Of a DNA stretch of 64,000 bases, positions 1 to 63,610 are shown one piece after another (the first letter of the stretch is position 1; every line of letters starts with the position of its first letter). Source of the DNA: Bactericera cockerelli (Eukaryota > Arthropoda > Insecta > Hemiptera > Triozidae). The stretch lies in NCBI GenBank assembly GCA_024516035.1, contig CM044956.1, forward strand, positions 24,681,383 to 24,745,382, given 5' to 3'. A program made the position numbers and the translations under genes. The notes beneath the pieces were generated by a model that saw only the letters and a list, made by a program, of their open reading frames with translations, had not been told where the DNA came from and did no database searches.

Positions 1-1490
1 AAAATTCAAAATCTTTGGGCGATTCCAACCAGGACCCGGTAAACCCTTTCATTCTCCATCTCTTAACTTACCAGCCTTAACATACCTGCCAACACTCGCA
101 AATGATTGCGGTTAGCCCATCTCTAAACCTGACCAGAACACATACTTATAATGATGTGTTCCATACAGTTACTGCTGACCACAGACTAGATCTTATTACT
201 AGATGTGTCTGGTCAAACTCACTGGAGAAAAGAAAAAGTTCATGAAGGAAGTGAAGAAGTATAAGGGCACACTCATTACATTACTACAAGCAAATAAGTT
301 TTACTGAAAGTTCAATAACAAGAACAAGAAAACAGAAGACTTTACTGAAATAAACACCAGGAGAAAAAAAGAAAACAAACAGTAAAATAAAAATATATGC
401 AGTGTGTCCACTTTTATGTGTGCCATAGGAAAATAACACGTAAAAACTTTTTTTGGGCCTTCAAAAATCGCTAGTGTTTTTTTCGACTGGAGAAATTGAT
501 CACCGCTAGTTTCAAGAGTCTACGATCTACAGTTCACGAGATATAGGTTCAAAACGAGCACCAGTACGAAATGTGGAACTACCTTACTTTTTTTTTTTTT
601 TTTTTTTTTTTAAAGATTTTAACATATTAACGGGGTTAACCCATGTTTATTTTTTGTAAATTAATTACAAACAAAAACTTATACTAAGATATAATATAAA
701 TACTTAGAATAAACTTAATTAAAAAATTGATAATTGAATTGGACAATATTGATATTTTTGTTTAGATATTATTCAGTTGGAATAGTTTATTTTTTATACA
801 TTCATAACTATCAAAGAAAAGATCGATTGAAGTGTCTTTCTCGCAAGCTTCATTAAAAAGGCGAATAAAACGATTGAAGGGCTTGAAAAAAGAATAGTTT
901 TTTGTACAAGATTTTTCATACAATAGATTTTTGTTTCTAGTATTCTTAGGATTTGTCCTAAATGAAAGTTCCTCTAGTAATTCTTTTAAAACAGTTCTAT
1001 TGTTTAATATTTTAAAAAGTTTTTCACGGATTTTTGGCTAAAAAATCGATTGGTGCTGGTTTTAAGAGTCTACAACTTACAATTCATGAGATTCACTCTT
1101 TCGTACAATTGAATAAGTTAGCGATGACCTTTTTTTCTCACCTTAGGTTTAATTTTAGGTTTCAACTATAGAGTGGGTATAAAACTTTAAGATTAACGAA
1201 ATGAAATACCTACCTATTTTTTTTTTTTTTTTTTTTTTTTAAATAAAACATACTTGTAAAGAAGGTTGTTAAAATGTATTTATTTGGCTGGGCGACCGAA
1301 TTTATTTTAATACAGATCTCTCTTTTGTCAAAAGAAAAAGTTTTAAAAGGAAACAGATATCTCGCTCTGGGAACGATGTATTTTATAATTAAAAATAGCC
1401 CATCAGGGCGGAAATCCAAACAAAACCCGGGTTCAGTGTAGTACGTTACCGATTAGTCCGATTGCACAGACTCTTGGCTGGGTATCAGTG
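1..1490. other. AT-rich intergenic DNA, no gene seen
   Basis: No convincing coding exon is visible. There are poly-T runs near 588-611 and 1219-1240. Two diverged direct repeats about 550 bp apart (roughly 470-560 and 1025-1110) share the core 'AAGAGTCTAC' followed by an 'ATTCATGAGAT'-like string, so an old repeat underlies the segment. Confidence 0.5.
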
Positions 1491-1493
1491 TGT

Positions 1494-1676
1494 AATCAGT
1501 GTAAACAGAAAAGTGAGAAGTTGTACTAGATGTACATAAATATCAGAACATACCTGGACAGCTGTTTCGAGCTTATTTGCTCTCATCAGCAGGTAATAGT
1601 TCTGAGTATCCATGCCATCGAATCACCTCTCTATTTTAATCAGTGTAAACAGAAAAGTGAGAAGTTGTACTAGATG
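1494..1676 (-). repeat. Tandem 144-bp hammerhead satellite, 1.27 units
   Basis: An identical 39-bp string occurs at 1494-1532 and 1638-1676, giving a period of 144 bp. Between the two copies, on the minus strand, lies a complete hammerhead ribozyme (1535-1614). One full monomer plus the first 39 bp of the next is the signature of a tandem multimer or of an integrated concatemer, not of a dispersed single-copy insert. A related monomer lies on the + strand at about 55218-55364. In metazoans such short tandem units with hammerheads are known as retrozyme-like elements that give small circular RNAs; assignment here is by structure only. Confidence 0.75.
1535..1614 (-). ncRNA. Type I hammerhead self-cleaving ribozyme, copy A
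   Basis: Read on the minus strand, all conserved hammerhead core elements are in order. CUGAUGA is at 1589-1583. Stem II is GAGC (1582-1579) paired with GCUC (1572-1569). GAAA is at 1568-1565. Stem III is minimal, two base pairs (A-U, C-G) closing the loop AGCU (1563-1560). The cleavage triplet GUC is at 1559-1557. Stem I is formed by UACCUG (1595-1590) with CAGGUA (1556-1551), then GAAC/GUUC, then an outer 8-bp helix with two G-U wobbles, separated by internal loops. A two-pair stem III is typical of hammerheads in Penelope-like elements and metazoan retrozymes, which often cleave as dimers. Cleavage is predicted just 3' of C at 1557. Confidence 0.85.
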
Positions 1677-28135: not shown

Positions 28136-29130
28136 TTGCAATTGAAAAAGAAGAGCAGAAGTAGGAGGGAAAATAGAAGAGAAGAAGAAGGAGGGAAAAA
28201 AGAAGAGTAGAAGTAGGAGGGAAAATAGAAGAGAAGAAGTAGGAGGGAAAATAGAAGAGAAGAAGTAGGAGGGAAAATAGAAGAGAAGAAGTAGGAGGGA
28301 AAATAGAAGAGAAGAAGTAGGAAGGAAAATAGAAGAGAAGAAGTAGGAGGGAAAATAGAAGAGAAGAAGTAGGAGGGAAAATAGAAGAGAAGAAGTAGGA
28401 GGGAAAAGAGAAGAGAAGAAGTAGGACTGGAAAATAGAAGAGAAGAAGTAGGACTGGAAAATAGAAGAGCAGCAGTAGGAGGGAAAATAGAAGAGCAGGA
28501 AGTAGGAGGGAAAAGAGAAGAGAAGAAGTAGGAGGAATATAGAAGAGAAGAAGAAGGAGGGAAAATAGAAGAGAAGAAGTAGGAGGGAAAATAGAAGAGA
28601 AGAAGTAGGAGGGAAAATAGAAGAGAAGAAGTAGGAGGGAAAATAGAAGAGAAGAAGTAGGAGGGAAAATAGAAGAGAAGAAGTAGGAGGGAAAAGAGAA
28701 GGAGAAGTAGGAGGAAAATAGAAGAGAAGAAGTAGGACTGGAAAATAGAAGAGCAGCAGTAGGAGGGAAAATAGAAGAGCAGAAGTAGGAGGAAATAGAG
28801 AAGAGAAGAAGTAGAGGGAATATAGAAGAGAAGAAGAAGAGGGAAAATAGAAGAGAAGAAGTAGGAGGGAAAATAGAAGAGAAGAAGTAGGATGGAAAAA
28901 GAAGAGCAGAAGTAGGAGGGAAAATAGAAGAGAAGAAGTAGGAGGGTAAATAGAAGAGCAGAAGTAGGAGGGAAAATAGAAGAGAAGAAGTAGGAGGGAA
29001 AAAGAAGAGAAGAAGTAGGAGGGAAAATAGAAGAGAAGAAGTAGGAGGGAAAAGAGAAGAGAAGAAGTAGGACGGAAAAAGAAGAGAAGAAGTAGGAGGG
29101 AAAAGAAAGAGAAGAAGTACGGGGAATAGA
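28136..29130. repeat. Purine-rich 26-bp minisatellite, ~1 kb, ~38 copies
   Basis: The unit is GAAGTAGGAGGGAAAATAGA plus AGAGAA, with single-base variants (GCAG, GGACTG, AAAGAG). The minus strand stays open for 351 codons (28124-29179) because the pyrimidine-rich complement lacks stop triplets; it would encode a Phe/Ser/Leu/Pro repeat with a 26-residue period. That frame has no credible start context or splice support, so I treat it as a by-product of composition. Confidence 0.9.
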
Positions 29131-32973: not shown

Positions 32974-33197
32974 TTTTTTTTTTGGTTTTTAACGTCGCTT
33001 TCAACTGCATGGTCATATCACGACGGGGTGTTACCCTCCATTCGCAGGAAACTCACAAACCTGCTACCCACATTAACCTCACCCAGCCTGGGTTGGGCCG
33101 GAATGCCAGCATCACGAAGTCTTCACCTCGCTGGACGTTGCTTAACTTCAGTGATCCAACGAGAACCGGTGCATTCAACGCGCCATCGACGCTGGCT
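32974..33197 (-). mobile_element. 5S-rRNA-derived SINE with perfect 10-bp TSD
   Basis: The flanks GCAATATTTT at 32964-32973 and 33198-33207 are identical. On the minus strand the element starts AGCCAGCGTCGATGGC, followed by 'ACCGGTTCTCGTTGGATCAC' and 'TGAAGTTAAGCAACGTCCAG', which closely track the first 60 nt of insect 5S rRNA. The tail ends 'GTTGAAAGCGACGTTAAAAA' and a poly-A. The 5S part is shortened relative to the copy at 63057. 5S-headed SINEs are the SINE3 class, moved by a partner LINE. Confidence 0.85.
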
Positions 33198-36056: not shown

Positions 36057-36300
36057 CCGAGAAATTTGTAATATTAGAAATCGGAAGTATTGTGTTCGTT
36101 TTTGTAAAAAAAAAAAAAAAATATTTTTGGCTCCGATTTCAATTTTTTTCATATATCTGGACGTTTCATAACCTCCTGAGCAACTTTGGTTTTGTGTCCG
36201 TCTGTCGGTCTGCTAAAAATATTACTTGTAACGCGCAAATCTCGGTAACTACTTAACGGATTTTGATAAAATTTTGCACACATATAGGAGACGTTAAGTA
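36057..36300 (+). repeat. Repeat family A fragment abutting the UGT start
   Basis: The hairpin end (TACCGAGAAATTTGTAATAT) begins at 36057 and the family runs through 'TAACGCGCAAATCTCGGTAA' to 'ACATATAGGAGACGTTAAGT'. A poly-A follows and the UGT start codon lies only about 30 bp further. The region that should hold the UGT promoter or 5' UTR is therefore TE-derived. Confidence 0.75.
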
Positions 36301-36329
36301 AAAAAAAAAAAAATACCTCATTCACTAGT

Positions 36330-36573
36330 ATGACGTCAACCAAGTCCATACTGCTAATTTCGCTGCTACTAACTTCTTCTCTGAGTTGCCATGGTTACAA
36401 CATACTGGTACTCGGCGTCCACCCGTTCCACTCCCATCTCTTCATGCTGTCCACTATGGCCAACGAGCTGGTGAATCGCGGCCACAATGTCACGTTTGTC
36501 ACGGTCAAGGCGAATAAGCCCCACCCGAAACTTCACGTCATTCAGAACGAGAACGTGGTGAGCCCGATCCTCA
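36330..36573 (+). CDS. UGT exon 1: signal peptide and catalytic His
   Basis: It encodes 81 codons plus 1 nt and is followed by GTAAGT. The signal peptide is hydrophobic (KSILLISLLLTSSLS). The donor string TCAGTAAGTAA occurs again about 50 bp into the intron (36621), part of a short direct duplication. The upstream ATG context is within a poly-A/TE border, so a TSS could not be placed. Confidence 0.9.
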
Positions 36574-39483
36574 GTAAGTAATAAGTTAAATCCCATATAA
36601 CAGTAATATAACTAGTAATCTCAGTAAGTAACAGTAATATAATAACATAACATCGCCATTTATACTTTCCGACTAGTACTTATAAGTCCGATTATTCCAG
36701 CAGTAAGTCAGAAACGTATTATGATGTTGTGAAAATCCCAAAGGGGAGGATAACTTCTTTTGTTTTGTCTGGAACTCCCGAGCTCTGGAATACCCCCCGC
36801 CTTGAACACACTGATGCTACGGGGACAAATAGAGCGCTTCAATAACTTTTTAACTTTACTTTGATTGGTGACAATTTCAGAGTGATTGAAGTTACAACCA
36901 AAAGGTTGAGGGTTTGATTGCAAACACAAAAGCTGAAATCTAACGATAAAGGGATTAAATTGATTTGAATTATGTAAATGAAATAATAAGGGAAAGTATG
37001 TTTAATTAAAGCCTTTCACGGACTTCTATAGGTTTAGCTGTTTTGGAGATACAAATGATTTAGTATAAAATCTCAAAATTCCCACGTGTATACAATGTGA
37101 AACAATCACGAGGAAGTATTGTGCCCATAATTGCAGTGTATTTCTCTTTTGTCTGTTTTCAGGTCCAAGTTTCCTCAACAAATTACACTCCGCCAAGCCC
37201 ACTGAGCTGATGAAAGCATTATTTTCCATAGGAATTGAGGGGGCTGACAAAATATTGGCTTCCGGGGCTATTCAGCAATTAATTCACGCGCCGCCTGATG
37301 GTAAGCCAGAAGCTTCAAACTGATTTTATAAAACTTTAGGATAATATTACTCTATGTCTAATATTATGTGTAAGGTGGCGGACTCGTAAATCTTGTAATG
37401 GAGGTCGGTGGTTCAATTTGCTACGTCAAGCAAAAATTTACTAAAGCGAGTTTCAGTGATTGTGATTGACACACATTATAAATGATACATATTTCCTTGT
37501 CCAAATTACAGAGTATGTACCGTGGTCTAAAAGTTATCCTGTCAATTACAAACGTATTGTGACCTCAGCCCCAAGTACGACGCAGTGCTCACAGAAACCT
37601 ACTTTCTCGCGGAGGTCTAGCAGCAGGGTTCTCGCACAAGTATTCCTGCCCCCTCATCAACTACCAGCCCGTGGTCATGTCTCCCAATGTTGCTTACATG
37701 GTGGACAATCCTTACAACCCTGCCTACATAGCAGACTACAAGATGCATTTCACAAGCAATATGACCTTTTGGCAAAGGTTAGCTCTATTTATTTACAAGC
37801 TAAAACCCGCCACTTTGTCGCCGTTGCGGTTTTGTCCGTGGCTGATATCTTAATATTTTCTAGTACGCATCTAAATATCAAAAGGAGACTGTGTGCGAAA
37901 TTGGGAGTCATTTGGTCCAGCCATTTCTGTTGATTATGAATTAACGTAAATGAATTATACAGGGTGTCCCGTATACAGATGCAAATATTTTGAGGGTAGG
38001 TTCAGCCCACCGTGGACTATCATATGAGCGAAACTTGCAGTGGGGCATTTTGCTTCGTTAAAGAGTTATGGCCAAATCCCTGTTTTTCCCACAGTCCAGA
38101 GGTCACTTGGATCGATGCAAGTTTTTAAAGAAATGATAACCAGTAAGTAATTTTCGACTTCATGTATGGATAGTCATGCATATTTCCCTTCAAATGCAGT
38201 TGGTTGCATAAAAAAATATTGAAAGACCAGGAGATATTTAATCATAAGTTCAAACTTTTCTAAAATTGATTTTCCCTTTCGTGAATTTAAGTACTCTACA
38301 ATTGCAATTTCTGCGTCTCATCCAAAATTTCCATTTTTAATAATATAATAATCTTTTCTTTTGTTATATTGCACAATTTTATGTGTAGCGCAGAATCATA
38401 GGACTTTACATTTAATTTTCAATTTGATTTTTTCCACTATTCGTGACATTAAAGCTACTTCTACAATTGCAATTCTAGCGTCATCATCCAAAATTCCATT
38501 TTTAGATAATGATTTTGTTTAATAATGGTACAAAACTTGGCTGATTTCCACACAGACTTGAGAACAGCTACTTCCGCTCTACGCCATCCTCTACCAGAGT
38601 CTGATCTATTATCCCGCCGCGGACCAACTTCTGCGCAAGTACTTCCCCGCGTCAGCGTCGGGACCCTACATCAGCGACTCTTGCGTCAGCACCAGGCTTC
38701 ACCCTGGTGGATACGCATCCTGTGCTGACGGGCAGCATAGCCCTGGCGCCCAATGTGATTGATGTGGGCGGCATGCAGATCCAACCTCCCCTGCTTCTGC
38801 CTGCGGTGAGTTTCGCACTCGCATGAGGTCTATCAACTCCTTTGACATGGTGTGAAGAACGCCTACACAAAGATAGACACAGCGTGACATAGTGCATAGT
38901 AATAGAAATAAAAGAACGGCTTTAACAGTCAACATTGGAAAAACAAACTTAAGGGCCAAATTAAAACAAATTTAAAAATGTAGCACAATAGGGATGCTCT
39001 AGTTTATTACTTCAAAAATTTCTAATATTAGAAATGGGAAGTATTGTGTTTTTATATACAGGGTCCGCCAAAAAATAGGAGATACTCAAAATATCTAGAG
39101 AACGGATATATATTTTGAGAAAAATTAAAACAAAGGGACATTATATCGAGGGGGAAACCTTTTCTACTAGGTTTTGATTTTTATCATTATCAGGGGCGGC
39201 CCCAGGGGGGGAGTCAACTTTGGAACCTTAAATGGAACCACCTTATTTGTAATACATTTCTGAAAAGTAGTTAACATTCAAAGTATTTTAAGACATGTTT
39301 GAGATTTTTAATCAAAACAGTGCCGGAGATATCGTACATTTCATTTTACAGGTTTCAGTAAAAAAAATAAAAGTTAATTTTTTTATAAATATGGGTAAAC
39401 ACATGTCTTTCTATTTGAATTGAATTAAATGTTCATGCCTTTTTGATACCATTAGCTTTAGTAGGGAAGGTGTCAAGGGGTTA

Positions 39484-39516
<33 letters not shown>

Positions 39517-41983
39517 TAAAAACTGATCTTTTTTTAGTATAATTTGTGCTGAATAAATGCACTGAGTGTTGTTATTTAATGTAAAATAATGTATGATACC
39601 CTTGAAAACAGGCCGGAGACATGCACAAAATTCAAGTACAATTGAGTTCTAGCCTAGCCCTTACAGATTACTCTTCTGCGACTTAACTAGAGGTACCCAG
39701 TAAAGCATCAATATCATCTCCATAGGACTTAACTAGAGAGGTACCCAGTAAAGCATCAATATCATCTCCTAGGACTTAACTAGAGAGGTACCCAGTAAAG
39801 CATCAATATCATCTCCATAGGACTTAACTAGAGAGGTACCCAGTAAAGCATCAATATCATCTCCATAGGACTTAACTAGAGAGGTACCCAGTAAAGCATC
39901 AATATCATCTCCATAGGACATTGCGGACTTCATGACCTCTCACTCGAGGCACGGCGTCATCTATTTTGCAATGGGCTCTCACATCAACGCCGCTAATCTA
40001 GGACCCCGGCGTATCGACTCGCTGATCAAATTCTTCGCGACACTGCGTCAGGGCGTCCTGTGGAAGCTAGATACGCCTGAGCTCAGCACCCGCGTATCGG
40101 CCAATGTGAAAATAGCGACCTGGTTTCCACAGAACGATATTCTTGGTAAGTGCAGAGCGGTTATTCTAACGCAAGTGGAATGTTTCACAAACTTTACACA
40201 CTTGTATTTTTTTTTTTTTTTTTTTCAAAATACTCGATCATAATTTATTTACATCAAAATTATATGTACAAAAGAGAATAACATATTAAAAAATAATGTA
40301 AAAACTGAAAAAAGAAATGAGTTACTGTGATGCCTGTGACCTCTAATATGAATGTAAGTATAGATTTCTATTGTGCATATTTCAAAACTCTTAATTATTT
40401 TCCCAATACCGTATTCATTCTCGTGATGCCGCCACTAGTCGCTAATCCATTCAACTAGTGATTTATTCTTCTTCTCGAGGTATATGAGTTACGAACGTCC
40501 CTGTACAGAGAAGAAAAATTTCCAACCTGCCCGGGATTGAACTCAGGTCACCGTGCATACAAGCCTAGTGCTCTACACCAGTTGGTCCCGTTGACTACCA
40601 AAGGTATTAAAGAAGGAAATATTTAGAACCATATTCAAAATATTTAAATACTCCTTCAAAGCGCTACAGGTGACTTTTTAAATTACTCAGTGATTTATTT
40701 TCAGCAAATCAAAACAATCAAAAAGCGTTTCTGTCTGATTCCTTTTTTTTCTGAAGAAATGCGCGACCCCCTTGAAAATTCTTTCCGACCCCTTGGGGTA
40801 GCGCCCCCAGTTCGAAAAACAATTATGTACAAACATACTCTAATGTAAAGTATTTTTAGAGCGCGCGATTAGCTCAGTGTCATGCGGAAGGTACCGGGTT
40901 CGATCCCCCGTTCGACCGTGTTCACCCAGCACGTAATGGGAAGTATTGTGTCATTTTTCGCCAAACAGAGGGGACGCATACTACGGTATGGGCATGCTAC
41001 AACATAGACCACAAGCGTCTACAGTAGCTCCTGATTCATGGCTACAAAATAAAAAAGGCTGCGAAACATTCATCTTTTTTATTAAGAAGAAAGAAAAGAG
41101 ACTGTCCTAATATTCCTTTATTCCACAGCGCATCCCACCTGCCGTCTCTTCATCACCCACGGCGGGGTGCACTCCACAGTAGAGTCCCTCTACCACGGGG
41201 TGCCCATGCTCATCCTACCACTCTTCGCGGACCAGATGCAGAATGGTCAGAAAGCGCTGGAGCTGGGGTATGGGGAGCCGCTGGATTTCGACCGCTTTAG
41301 TTACGATGAATTGGAGGACAAGGTGAACAGAATATTGCGTGAACCAAGGTGAGTTGGGAAACTGGATTAGTTTTTTTAATGTTACTGAGCAGTCTGAGCA
41401 CAGTGATCATCATTCTGGATGGACGAATGTATGATCGCCAACATTATATAAAGTGAAGTAGCTTCTGGGTCAAAAATAACATGCATAGGGCAATGGTTTG
41501 ATGTTACATCTGCACGTGGGCCACTTGGAGATCTAATTTTACTTTTCAACTTGAGCTCACTTCGACCCTAAGAGGGGAAAACAGCTCTTCTAAGATTTGT
41601 GGTTCATTAATATAATATTAAGATATTCACTTCTTTAATATTCTTCTTTCTCCAGTTTCAGGGCCACTGCCCAGCGAATTTCCGCCATAATGAAATCCGA
41701 GCCCGTGCATCCCCTACAGCGAGCCATGCTAAGTATAGAGTACGTCATCAGCCACCAGGGCGCTACTCACTTGAGATCGGCCGCTACTCACTTGGCCTGG
41801 TATCAACTGTACCTCCTGGATGTGATCTTCTTTTTTCTCCTATTCTTGGGCCTAGTTGTGTACGCGCTCTACAGGGTGGGCATTACTCTGAAGCGCTGGG
41901 TTAGCTGCCTGTGTGTACAGTCTAGTTCTCAGTCGGCGAGGCTCAGGAAAAACAATATTAAAGAAAGTAAAAAACTAAAGTAA
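36330..41983 (+). CDS. UDP-glycosyltransferase, 7 exons, frame breaks in exons 3-4
   Basis: Membrane UDP-glycosyltransferases move a sugar from UDP-glucose or a related donor onto small lipophilic compounds in the ER lumen. Features seen: an N-terminal signal peptide (residues 1-22); the N-domain catalytic His in 'HPFHSH' (His36); the C-domain signature 'FITHGGVHSTVESLYHGV' with a following 'FADQ'; a membrane helix 'VIFFFLLFLGLVVYALY'; and a cytosolic tail ending KKLK, an ER-retrieval KKxx motif. Proposed exons: 36330-36573, 37163-37300, 37512-37777, 38556-38805, 39917-40145, 41129-41348 and 41656-41983. All junctions are GT-AG and phases agree across 1-2, 4-5, 5-6 and 6-7. Exons 3 and 4 need frame changes near 37560, 37613, 38576 and 38694 to read through. 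The copy is either a pseudogene or an indel-rich assembly. Total about 550 codons, slightly above the usual ~520. Confidence 0.92.
37040..37145 (+). repeat. Repeat family A fragment in UGT intron 1
   Basis: The blocks TTTGGAGATACAAATGATTT and 'CACGAGGAAGTATTGTGCCC' end in TTGCAGTGTATTT, only about 20 bp upstream of the exon 2 acceptor. The polypyrimidine tract for exon 2 begins right at the repeat's edge. Confidence 0.65.
37163..37300 (+). CDS. UGT exon 2
   Basis: The acceptor is TGTCTGTTTTCAG and the donor is GATG|GTAAGC. It enters and leaves in phase 1. The peptide contains 'PSFLNKLHSAKPTELMKA' and 'SGAIQQLIHAPPD', matching the N-domain helix region of insect UGTs. Confidence 0.88.
37512..37777 (+). 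CDS. UGT exon 3, disrupted
   Basis: The protein signature is clear in two frames. 'DLSPKYDAVLTETYFLA' begins at 37561, and 'AAGFSHKYSCPLINYQPV' plus 'MSPNVAYMVDNPYNP' lies from 37617 on in another frame, with a stop in the first frame at 37618-37620. The usable acceptor TTACAG at 37506-37511 adds about 17 residues that other UGTs do not have and needs a second frame change. If the exon instead began at 37562, exon 2 would join in frame, but the dinucleotide there is TG, not AG. Donor CAAAG|GTTAGC. Confidence 0.8.
37796..37925 (+). repeat. TE fragment at the start of UGT intron 3
   Basis: It matches 16670-16790 ('AGCTAAAACCCGCCACTTTG', 'TATCAAAAGGAGACTGTGTG'). It starts within 20 bp of the exon 3 donor. 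Confidence 0.55.
37960..38345 (+). repeat. Repeat family C in UGT intron 3
   Basis: It begins TA-CAGGGTGTCCCGTATACAG. An inverted relative at 47296-47664 shares 'CCACCGTGGACTATCAT', 'GCAGTGGGGCATTTTGCTTC' and 'CACTTGGATCGATGCA'. Part of the inner end ('CTACAATTGCAATT...') repeats at 38455-38515. Confidence 0.65.
38556..38805 (+). CDS. UGT exon 4, disrupted
   Basis: The acceptor is TTTCCACACAG and the donor is CTGCG|GTGAGT. The peptide is spread over three frames: 'LENSYF', then 'LYAILYQSLIYYPAADQLL', then 'FTLVDTHPVLTGSIALAPN' and 'VIDVGGMQIQPPLLLPA'. Shifts lie near 38576 and 38694. The first resembles loss of one base from a C run, as would a base-calling error. Confidence 0.8.
39059..39560 (+). 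repeat. Repeat family B half-copy in UGT intron 4
   Basis: The CAGGGTCCGCC end is preceded by TA and by a family A hairpin fragment (39011-39050). It matches the left half of 13176-14008 but lacks the mirrored arm. It includes a poly-T of about 29 at 39488-39516. Confidence 0.65.
39680..39916 (+). repeat. 48-bp minisatellite that duplicates the exon 5 splice acceptor
   Basis: There are five units. Each contains a branch-point-like CTTAACT and ends in ATCTCCATAG or a close variant. AG dinucleotides fall at 39725, 39772, 39820, 39868 and 39916, with spacings of 47, 48, 48 and 48 bp. Only the last is followed by coding sequence; after the others comes GACTTAACTAG, which contains an early stop in frame. 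Confidence 0.9.
39917..40145 (+). CDS. UGT exon 5
   Basis: It starts in phase 0 directly after a tandem array that duplicates its own acceptor (CTCCATAG). The peptide includes 'HGVIYFAMGSHINAAN', the C-domain strand typical of UGTs, and 'KIATWFPQNDIL' before donor CTTG|GTAAGT. Confidence 0.92.
40520..40600 (-). mobile_element. tRNA-derived SINE relic in UGT intron 5
   Basis: On the minus strand an A-box-like 'AACTGGTGTAGAGCAC' and a B box AGTTCAATCCC are 34 bp apart. The body runs leftward into 'TTCTTCTCTGTACAGGG'. Confidence 0.55.
40860..40932 (+). mobile_element. tRNA-like relic in UGT intron 5
   Basis: An A box (TTAGCTCAGTGTC) and a perfect B box (GGTTCGATCCC) are present, but they are too close and the anticodon arm is missing. 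It is a SINE or tRNA pseudogene, not a functional tRNA. Confidence 0.5.
41129..41348 (+). CDS. UGT exon 6: donor-binding signature
   Basis: The acceptor is CCTTTATTCCACAG and the donor is CCAAG|GTGAGT. It carries the PROSITE-type UGT signature, from 'FITHGGVHSTVESLYHG' through 'PMLILPLFADQMQN', with the Glu, Asp-Gln and His residues that bind the UDP-sugar. There is no disruption. Confidence 0.95.
41656..41983 (+). CDS. UGT exon 7: membrane anchor and KKxx tail
   Basis: The acceptor is TTCTTTCTCCAG. It encodes 'HPLQRAMLSIEYVISHQGA', a membrane helix (about 41818-41868) and a basic tail ending KKLK before TAA. A 12-bp string GCTACTCACTTG occurs twice in the exon, changing the usual 'ALDLAWYQ' region without altering length. 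Confidence 0.93.
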
Positions 41984-55217: not shown

Positions 55218-55364
55218 ACTGATTAAAATAGAGAGGTTAGTTGATGGCATGGATACTCAGAACTCTTACCTGCTGATGAGAGAAAATAAGCTCGAAACAG
55301 CTGTCCAGGTATGTTCTCATATCCATGTACATCTAGTACAACTTCTCACTTTTCTGTTTATACT
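55218..55364 (+). repeat. Hammerhead satellite monomer, ~146 bp
   Basis: It shares with 1494-1676 (reverse) the strings ACTGATTAAAATAGAGAGG, GATGGCATGGATACTCAGAA and 'CATCTAGTACAACTTCTCAC'. It is a single monomer beginning and ending at ACTGAT. Confidence 0.75.
55248..55327 (+). ncRNA. Type I hammerhead self-cleaving ribozyme, copy B
   Basis: CUGAUGA is at 55273-55279. Stem II is GAG/CUC (55280-55282 with 55291-55293). GAAA is at 55294-55297. Stem III is two pairs (A-U, C-G) closing AGCU (55299-55302). The cleavage triplet GUC is at 55303-55305. Stem I has three helices: UACCUG/CAGGUA adjoining the core, GAAC/GUUC, and an outer perfect CAUGGAUA/UAUCCAUG (55248-55255 with 55320-55327), separated by internal loops suited to loop-loop contact with loop II. 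All invariant core nucleotides are present. Confidence 0.85.
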
Positions 55365-55390
55365 GATATACTGAACATTAAAAGAAAGAA

Positions 55391-55647
55391 TTGTTGTATG
55401 CTTGAGGCTGATAACACCAAAAATGTGCAGGGACGCTACACAGGTTTCGCAAGAGCAACTGGTTCGTGGTTCTTTACAAGAGAATGGTAGGCAGTTGGAA
55501 CATCCCCCTTCAATCCTCGAGAACATGCCGTTCTCTTGTAAAAAAATGTTGCTTTTGCAGTCACATGCGTCAAAGCACTTAGACCCAGTGCTTTGACGCA
55601 TTCACTAGCTTTATTACAAGGTGTTATCAGCCTCGAGCATTCAACAA
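55391..55647. mobile_element. 257-bp MITE with 28-bp TIRs and nested hairpins
   Basis: TTGTTGTATGCTTGAGGCTG plus ATAACACC (55391-55418) is inverted at 55620-55647 with two mismatches. Inside there is a perfect 15-bp hairpin (55565-55579 with 55587-55601, loop TAGACCC) and an inverted TTTACAAGAGAA/TTCTCTTGTAAA pair. Confidence 0.65.
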
Positions 55648-56542
55648 TATGTAAAATAATAAATACCATTAAATGACTAATAAGGAAAAAACAACAAGAA
55701 TAAAACAGTAATATAATTGAATAATAAGGAAATTAAATTTTTAATTGTAAATATTTTATAACTCAAATTACATAATAAATTTTATTTTTACTATCTATAC
55801 GTATTTCTATAATCTATATAAGAGACCCAACACATGCTTGTGCACTTCGGGTTTCTTCTACTGCAATTTAAATAACAAAAAACATTATTAAGCATTTTAT
55901 CTATGTATATGATATTATTTTATTTAAGTTATGTTTCTGTACTTGTTAATTGTTATATGTTTATGAAAAACATCAGTTATTTTAAAAGTATTTTTAAAAA
56001 GAACTTAAATCTGTGAATGTCTGGCTGACTGACTATATCCTCTTATCGGTTATCTGTTTAAAATACCACAGCCCAAACGGTAACAGATATTGAAATTTTC
56101 ATGAGAATTGACCAAGCCCCCCCTAAACAACGTCAAACTACCTAGAAAATTATCAAATTACCATTTTCAAGTAGGACACCAGCCACGGGAAATTAGGTAT
56201 AATCTGAAGGCACACGACGCACACTGGGGTATTTGCCTTCAAAAGTTGCACAAAACCCCCCAAAAGAAGAAGCTTAATCTAAATTTTTTTTTAGTCATGT
56301 GTTCTAGAAGAGAATATGTGTTAAAACCCAAAAAGAAATATTTTGATAACTCATCTTGGGTAAGTACAGAAGATGCTTGAAATCACGTGACATGCCAAGC
56401 TTACGTCACAACTTATACAGCTGCTTTTATGTCTCATTTGAAATGAATGAAATTTAAGGCCTATCAATTGTTTATTCATAGTAGTGATGGTTTTTATTTA
56501 ATGAGGAGGACATAGGCATAGCGTATGTGCAATTTTTTGTAC

Positions 56543-62619: not shown

Positions 62620-63610
62620 CCTTTGATTCGCTTTTTAAAAAAAAAAAACCATTCTGGTCCTTCTGAATAAAAAAGATCGGGACATAATAAGTATTCCTTT
62701 CAAAAGGCTATAACTCAAGTTTGGTCCAGTGTAATATTTTGGTTTTGCCAAATTATTATTCCCCATGATAAGGCCTTTTGAAAAATACCACAATCGCAGC
62801 TCCAAGATGACCGAAAAAAAAAAAAAAAAAAAAATCCGGTTTTCTTGTAAAAGGCTATTCTCCTATCCTATAAAAAATAAATCCTTGAAACTATAAAAGG
62901 TATGAAGAAATAAAAATTCCCTATCCAAAAACGTAGCTCACGTCTTTCCACAATAAGCACACGTTGCTGTATCCTTAACAGAAAATTGGTCTAAAAAAAA
63001 CCCGTATGAATAATTTCATGAAATTCAAGATTTTCGGCGTGGCCAGAAAACAACTTTTTTTTTTTTAAGTGGGGTTTAACGTCGCTTTCAACTGCCATGG
63101 TCATATCACGACGGGGGTTTTACCCTCCATTCGCAGGAAACTCACAAACCTGCTACTCACATTGACCTCACCCAGCCTGAGTGGGGCCGGGAAAAGCCAG
63201 CGTCACGAGAATTAGAATTTGAATGGTCACCCATCCAAGTCTTAACCTCGCTGGATGTCACTTAACTTCGGTGTTCTGAAGGGAACCGGTGTATTCAACA
63301 TGCCATCGACGCTGGCTAAAACAACTTTAACTGTACGTAGGACCCTCGCGCTTTCGTGAATCACAATCTATTTTCGCGTCTCATTACGAATTTGAAATAA
63401 AATTGATAAAAGTTAGCGGGAAGTGGGCGAAAACAAAATACATATAAACTCTGTTTCGTGTTAATATTAGGCCGGTTGGCTGGCGCTACTTGACGAGCGA
63501 TCGCCTCTCGGCGAGCTTGATTAGGTACTCTTTTGTAGGCATTGTCAAACTTTTTGTCGTGGTCCTTCAGGTGAATTTATAAGATGACGTTTTTCTCCTC
63601 TGCGATTTTG
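62620..63610 (+). repeat. Family F long copy 2, carries a SINE
   Basis: Same landmarks as 61190-61690, but split at 63047-63327 by the SINE and its target duplication. The right part (63365-63600) is closest to 34800-34990 and 51822-51968. Confidence 0.6.
63057..63317 (-). mobile_element. 5S-rRNA-derived SINE, best copy, perfect 10-bp TSD
   Basis: The flanks AAAACAACTT at 63047-63056 and 63318-63327 are identical. On the minus strand the 5S-like head has 'CACCGAAGTTAAGTGACATC', 'CAGCGAGGTTAAGACTTGGA' and TGGGTGACC, the same order as box A, the intermediate element and box C of 5S genes. It ends GACGCTGGCTT. The tail has 'GACCATGGCAGTTGAAAGCG', 'ACGTTAAACCCCACTTA' and a poly-A. A family D-like local duplicate at 61505 supplies the empty site. 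Confidence 0.88.

Follow-up and report, generated by a model that had tools for sequence, protein, structure and literature searches.

The window analysed here, a stretch of 64000 nucleotides, carries close to its start a short direct repeat enclosing a hammerhead ribozyme motif, and the question raised by this locus is what kind of element gave rise to it and by what route it reached its present position. A second copy of the same unit, which the sequence-only reading of this locus did not mention, was found at a distance within the window. It is likely that the two are dispersed insertions of a 144-nt family of non-LTR retrozymes, which would be non-autonomous, would carry a type I hammerhead and would move by the RNA cycle proposed below.

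Two dispersed copies of a 144-nt unit

The first copy (positions 1493–1676, minus strand) is 184 nt long and consists of one 144-nt unit plus a 40-nt partial repeat, equivalent to 1.28 units, with one ribozyme. In the sense orientation, the partial-unit repeat at the 5′ end (1637–1676, minus strand) and that at the 3′ end (1493–1532, minus strand) are 100% identical over 40 nt and are spaced 144 nt apart, and the repeat is an exact duplicate of the unit's own end. The tandem 144-bp unit described in the sequence-only reading was therefore recovered, and its identical flanking strings were also found, with a length of 40 nt and not the 39 claimed. The GC content of the unit is 37.5%. The region adjoining this copy (1849–2300) is itself repetitive, giving 16 blastn rows beyond the self-match within the window (74–100% identical), which involve several sub-stretches and include short rows and one internal row.

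A type I hammerhead motif (1545–1603, minus strand) sits between the two repeats. CUGAUGA was located at 1589–1583, followed by stem II (GAGC-AAAUAA-GCUC, 1582–1569) with GAAA next to it, and stem III (AC-AGCU-GU, 1565–1558) consists of two pairs and a palindromic tetraloop. C17 is at 1557, the predicted cut lying 3′ of the complement of this position, and the strands of stem I are 1603–1590 and 1556–1545. Stem I is extended and includes internal loop 1, and loop 2 is also present, agreeing with the CAAAUA of the RF00163 consensus. In the canonical ribozyme, these two loops make a tertiary contact. A complete hammerhead with a minimal stem III had been claimed for this locus, and both claims hold, as all core elements could be placed between the repeats and matches were obtained to the Rfam models RF02275 (33.6 bits; E-value 1.2e-6 in 601 nt and 1.2e-4 over the window) and RF00163 (type I; 32.5 bits when the 53 nt at 1548–1600 were scanned alone). 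These scores are below the Rfam gathering cut-offs of 52 for RF02275 and 34 for RF00163, which are detection thresholds and not defining features, and a default Rfam scan of the window was therefore silent, with no hammerhead model reaching its gathering score. When cmscan was run over the window in E-value mode, 15 rows were returned, two of which were hammerheads, one in the first copy and the other in a second copy at 55218–55367 on the plus strand.

The second copy is 150 nt long and comprises the 144-nt unit and a 6-nt terminal redundancy (ACTGAT), equivalent to 1.04 units, again with one ribozyme. It shares 141 of 150 bases with the first copy, including the core bases, and has the unit junction in common with it. 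Its hammerhead motif (55259–55317, plus strand) has an intact core and scored 30.1 bits with RF00163 and 23.9 bits with RF02275, and the closing pair of stem II is broken (C-G to A.G), leaving three pairs. The features of a type I hammerhead are thus found in both copies, namely the core bases CUGAUGA, GAAA and H17 and three helices with the opening at stem I. Two matches to the pattern CTGATGA-N6..34-CGAAAC were counted in the window, against 0.06 expected, and the second of them (55273, plus strand) lies inside the second copy; two matches were also seen in 1 of 100 shuffles.

No third significant copy was detected when both copies were compared with the window using blastn, and the flanks of the two loci (~500–640 nt on each side) gave no mutual match at an E-value of 1e-3. 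No exact match to parts of the unit was obtained from viral_contigs or genome_contigs, collections that contain no insects as such and from which records of the same genome are perhaps excluded. A foldback or MITE-like element (55390–55648) starts 22 bp after the second copy; its 29-nt ends are inverted repeats (93%), and a palindrome lies inside it at 55565–55601.

Elsewhere in the window, a multi-exon UDP-glycosyltransferase gene of psyllid type (36288–41980, plus strand) was identified, with Pfam matches in three exon frames. Its best named relatives, among the best 120 of 281 matches, are from Cyamophila, Cacopsylla and Diaphorina, and the top match is 67%. The host is a hemipteran, in all likelihood a psyllid. 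Two 5S rRNA-like stretches on the minus strand (33104–33196 and 63195–63316; 50.6 and 61.8 bits) are perhaps the heads of a 5S-derived SINE, and a minisatellite at 28144–29126 repeats a purine-rich 26-bp unit 38 times, its GC and AT skew both being strong.

Template and predicted fold of the unit

The second copy opens with ACTGAT, the six bases that precede the internal unit junction of the first copy, and the frequency of this sequence among random 6-mers of the window is 0.00024. This suggests that the template of both copies was probably a unit following itself, i.e. a circle or a multimer, and both loci look like the progeny of circular or multimeric RNA. An integrated multimer had been proposed, which overstates the case: both insertions do exceed one unit, but they amount to 1.28 and 1.04 units with a single ribozyme each, and loci with two ribozymes number 0 of 2 in the window. 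As each locus has one ribozyme and a single cleavage site, neither could alone free a unit circle.

Alternatively, the unit might be a satellite repeat dispersed through circular DNA or unequal exchange, in which case the hammerhead would be present by descent with no RNA stage. Satellites bearing hammerheads are known, for example, from Dolichopoda crickets (PMC2837043). However, the copies described here are single, dispersed and of about one unit instead of forming arrays, and they have a common 3′ end, with a further loop motif following each of the 3′ ends (see below), making a satellite origin very improbable.

When folded as a 144-nt circle, the first copy gave a computed energy of −43.0 against −23.7 for dinucleotide shuffles (SD 3.6, n=200; z −5.4), and the second gave −36.0 against −23.8 (SD 3.6, n=200; z −3.4), with paired fractions of 69% and 62.5%, respectively. 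Of the low GC and the stable self-paired circle that characterise metazoan non-LTR retrozymes, the first is observed in this unit and the second is predicted. As the antisense circles (−30.6 and −32.4) are also predicted to fold with fair stability, the predicted sense fold of the second copy appears only modestly special. Of 48 pairs in the constrained fold of the first copy, 44 are kept in the second; the nine changes break four pairs against a null mean of 4.5, hence selection to preserve pairing between the copies is unsupported. Forcing the hammerhead gave a structure 6.0 kcal/mol above the minimum free energy (MFE) in each copy, using nearest-neighbour energies that do not count a tertiary bonus, and part of the core is sequestered in alternative pairing in the MFE structure.

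The pairing of part of the core elsewhere in the MFE, and the weakened stem II of the second copy, would agree with an ordinary SINE, whose loci would be real insertions with a dead or irrelevant ribozyme and would owe their extra length to template jumping. However, the core bases are retained in both copies at 94% identity and the unit junction is common to both. Pol III boxes were also not matched, no A or B box being detected on the sense strand by one strict pattern each, and a SINE of this kind is distinctly unlikely. The proposal of a self-cleaving circular-RNA element is instead supported in part, at the level of sequence, by the dispersed copies, the common core and junction, the non-matching flanks and a fold better than that of shuffles.

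A coding role for the unit was considered and rejected. One frame of the second copy (55218–55361, plus strand; 48 codons) is stop-free around the circle, but the same is true of 9.6% of shuffles, and the frame is stopped in the first copy. The nine base changes alter the residue in seven of the 48 codons, one of these being the stop, and one further codon is changed silently. A protein search with the peptides yielded no candidate.

Common 3′ ends and a possible start site

A 14-bp hairpin located away from the ribozyme is predicted at 1623–1660 (minus strand), with the 10-nt loop ACACUGAUUA at 1646–1637. The loop sequence recurs at 1502–1493, which is the end of the first copy. In the second copy the loop is AUACUGAUUA, and 12 pairs remain when the hairpin is folded alone. 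In the sense orientation, the first copy exits the unit after ACACTGATTA and the second after ATACTGAT. The 3′ ends of the two copies are therefore at most 2 nt apart on 144, and both lie within the loop predicted for this hairpin (A[C/U]ACUGAUUA).

Past the 3′ end of each copy is a second loop motif, spelled as in the loop of the copy concerned. At the 3′ junction of the first copy (1477–1492, minus strand) it is ACACTGAT, and at that of the second (55368–55374, plus strand) it is ATACTGA, a repeat of the copy's own loop motif. The chance that two 3′ ends would coincide so nearly on a circle of 144 nt is ~5/144 by simple arithmetic, and the null fractions for the second loop motif, from 20000 random 16-mers of the window, are 0.0015 (first copy) and 0.0096 (second copy), these end tests having been chosen post hoc with the data already seen and with n=2. 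The motif at the first copy overlaps a possible 7-bp target repeat, ATACCCA, which is found at both junctions of that copy and is not significant (chance 0.077). Candidate target-site repeats of 5–6 nt at the second copy were likewise not significant (chance 0.59–0.23). The shared 3′ end in the loop, together with the second loop motif after each copy, suggests the hypothesis that reverse transcription may begin inside the hairpin loop.

An internal start of this type is described for the Penelope-like enzyme of Anolis in the available text of PMC11167929. It begins on its RNA within an AC-rich stem loop that is non-homologous to the cut DNA and cuts ATT sites, and genomic copies of the element end at the start loop. 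As ribozyme mutants of the Anolis element still insert in vitro, a link to Penelope would explain the ends of the copies described here and not their ribozyme. The loop bears a loose likeness to the start site in Anolis (+111–118, acaacaca), and the Anolis stretch was unpaired in a computed fold, with no clear hairpin loop, which leaves this likeness as no more than a lead.

The cycle that we infer from these features would begin with tandem source copies located elsewhere in the genome, from which transcripts would be cut by their hammerheads into 144-nt units, and a host ligase would close these units into rod-like circles. A reverse transcriptase, itself borrowed, would begin on the circle in the loop of the 14-bp hairpin, would sometimes stutter at the loop, and would run slightly more than one lap, resulting in the inserts of 1.04 and 1.28 units. 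It is possible, though doubtful, that the circle bears its own start site in the hairpin loop, where a Penelope-type enzyme would start, stutter and complete more than one lap, such that all insertions share a 3′ end.

A closer relationship, in which the unit would be part of a longer Penelope-like element, namely its hammerhead-bearing tandem pseudo-LTR, and both loci would be truncated remnants of that element, was also considered. Penelope-like elements have type I hammerheads and partial tandem repeats, and one of them begins reverse transcription within an AC-rich stem loop, according to the text available of PMC11167929. However, the 144-nt unit abuts itself directly at the tandem junction, where no coding region intervenes, and no reverse transcriptase was detected by Pfam in 19 distinct stop-to-stop frames, of 106 frames of at least 75 aa. 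A frame for a reverse transcriptase with GIY-YIG was absent from the 144-nt unit as well as from the 19 of 106 frames given to Pfam. In addition, the extended stem I and its internal loop depart from the minimal Penelope type outlined in PMC7761336, and descent from a longer Penelope-like element is thus unlikely, although a whole element might lie elsewhere. The kinship previously drawn from the short stem III holds for its retrozyme-like two pairs, but not for a minimal Penelope type.

Relationship to known retrozymes and other elements

The enzyme that copies animal retrozyme circles back into DNA is not named in the sources considered (PMC7229834 and PMC7761336). According to the available text of PMC7229834 and PMC7761336, animal retrozymes give rise to abundant small RNA circles, closure of retrozyme RNA is most likely performed by tRNA ligase, and Penelope-like elements are suspected, from their co-occurrence, of providing the reverse transcriptase. 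In the part available, the 2020 review (PMC7761336) describes retrozyme repeats as having no conserved motif that points to a reverse transcriptase. A loop start site, if true, would supply this missing motif and identify the enzyme by which animal retrozymes are mobilised, and if the 3′ ends of most copies in this genome lie in a single hairpin loop, junction counts could be used to test the question. The common loop 3′ end of both copies, and the hypothesis linking it to a Penelope-type internal start, are new here. Neither a psyllid retrozyme nor a fixed start loop in retrozymes was found in the open-access literature, among the matches listed.

The SM-alpha element of Schistosoma carries a type I hammerhead and, like the element described here, is dispersed and SINE-like. 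It differs in size, a relative of 335 bp being described (PMC8490949, in the text available) compared with the 144-nt unit. Schistosome repeats also carry a full tRNA, as reported in the available part of PMC4918200, whereas the unit found here has no strict Pol III boxes. Penelope-like elements, as presented in the accessible text of PMC11167929, resemble the element in their type I hammerhead, partial tandem structure and 3′ ends within a stem loop that includes A and C. However, the ribozyme here has a stem III as well as an extended stem I, and the unit is far shorter and has no frame.

Metazoan non-LTR retrozymes, as described in the available text of Cervera and de la Pena 2020 (PMC7229834), have type I hammerheads in repeats of 150–450 bp and RNAs of ~170–400 nt. 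They share with the element described here the two-pair stem III with a tetraloop, which is a likeness to the invertebrate hammerheads described there, and also low GC, a self-paired unit, a partial-tandem copy and the absence of a coding region. Their loci range from dimers to multimers, such that a unit is bracketed by two ribozymes, and insertions of 1.04 and 1.28 units were the only ones found in the window, in a psyllid-like host. The combination of a type I hammerhead with neither an LTR nor a coding region was found in the present unit, which is short, as had been claimed, its 144 nt being 6 below the lowest bound in the papers considered, for what is a descriptive range. Except for size and a two-ribozyme locus, the tested sequence features fit those of animal non-LTR retrozymes, of which this element would be a further example, adding a likely psyllid host and a predicted circle of 144 nt, under the sizes given in those papers.
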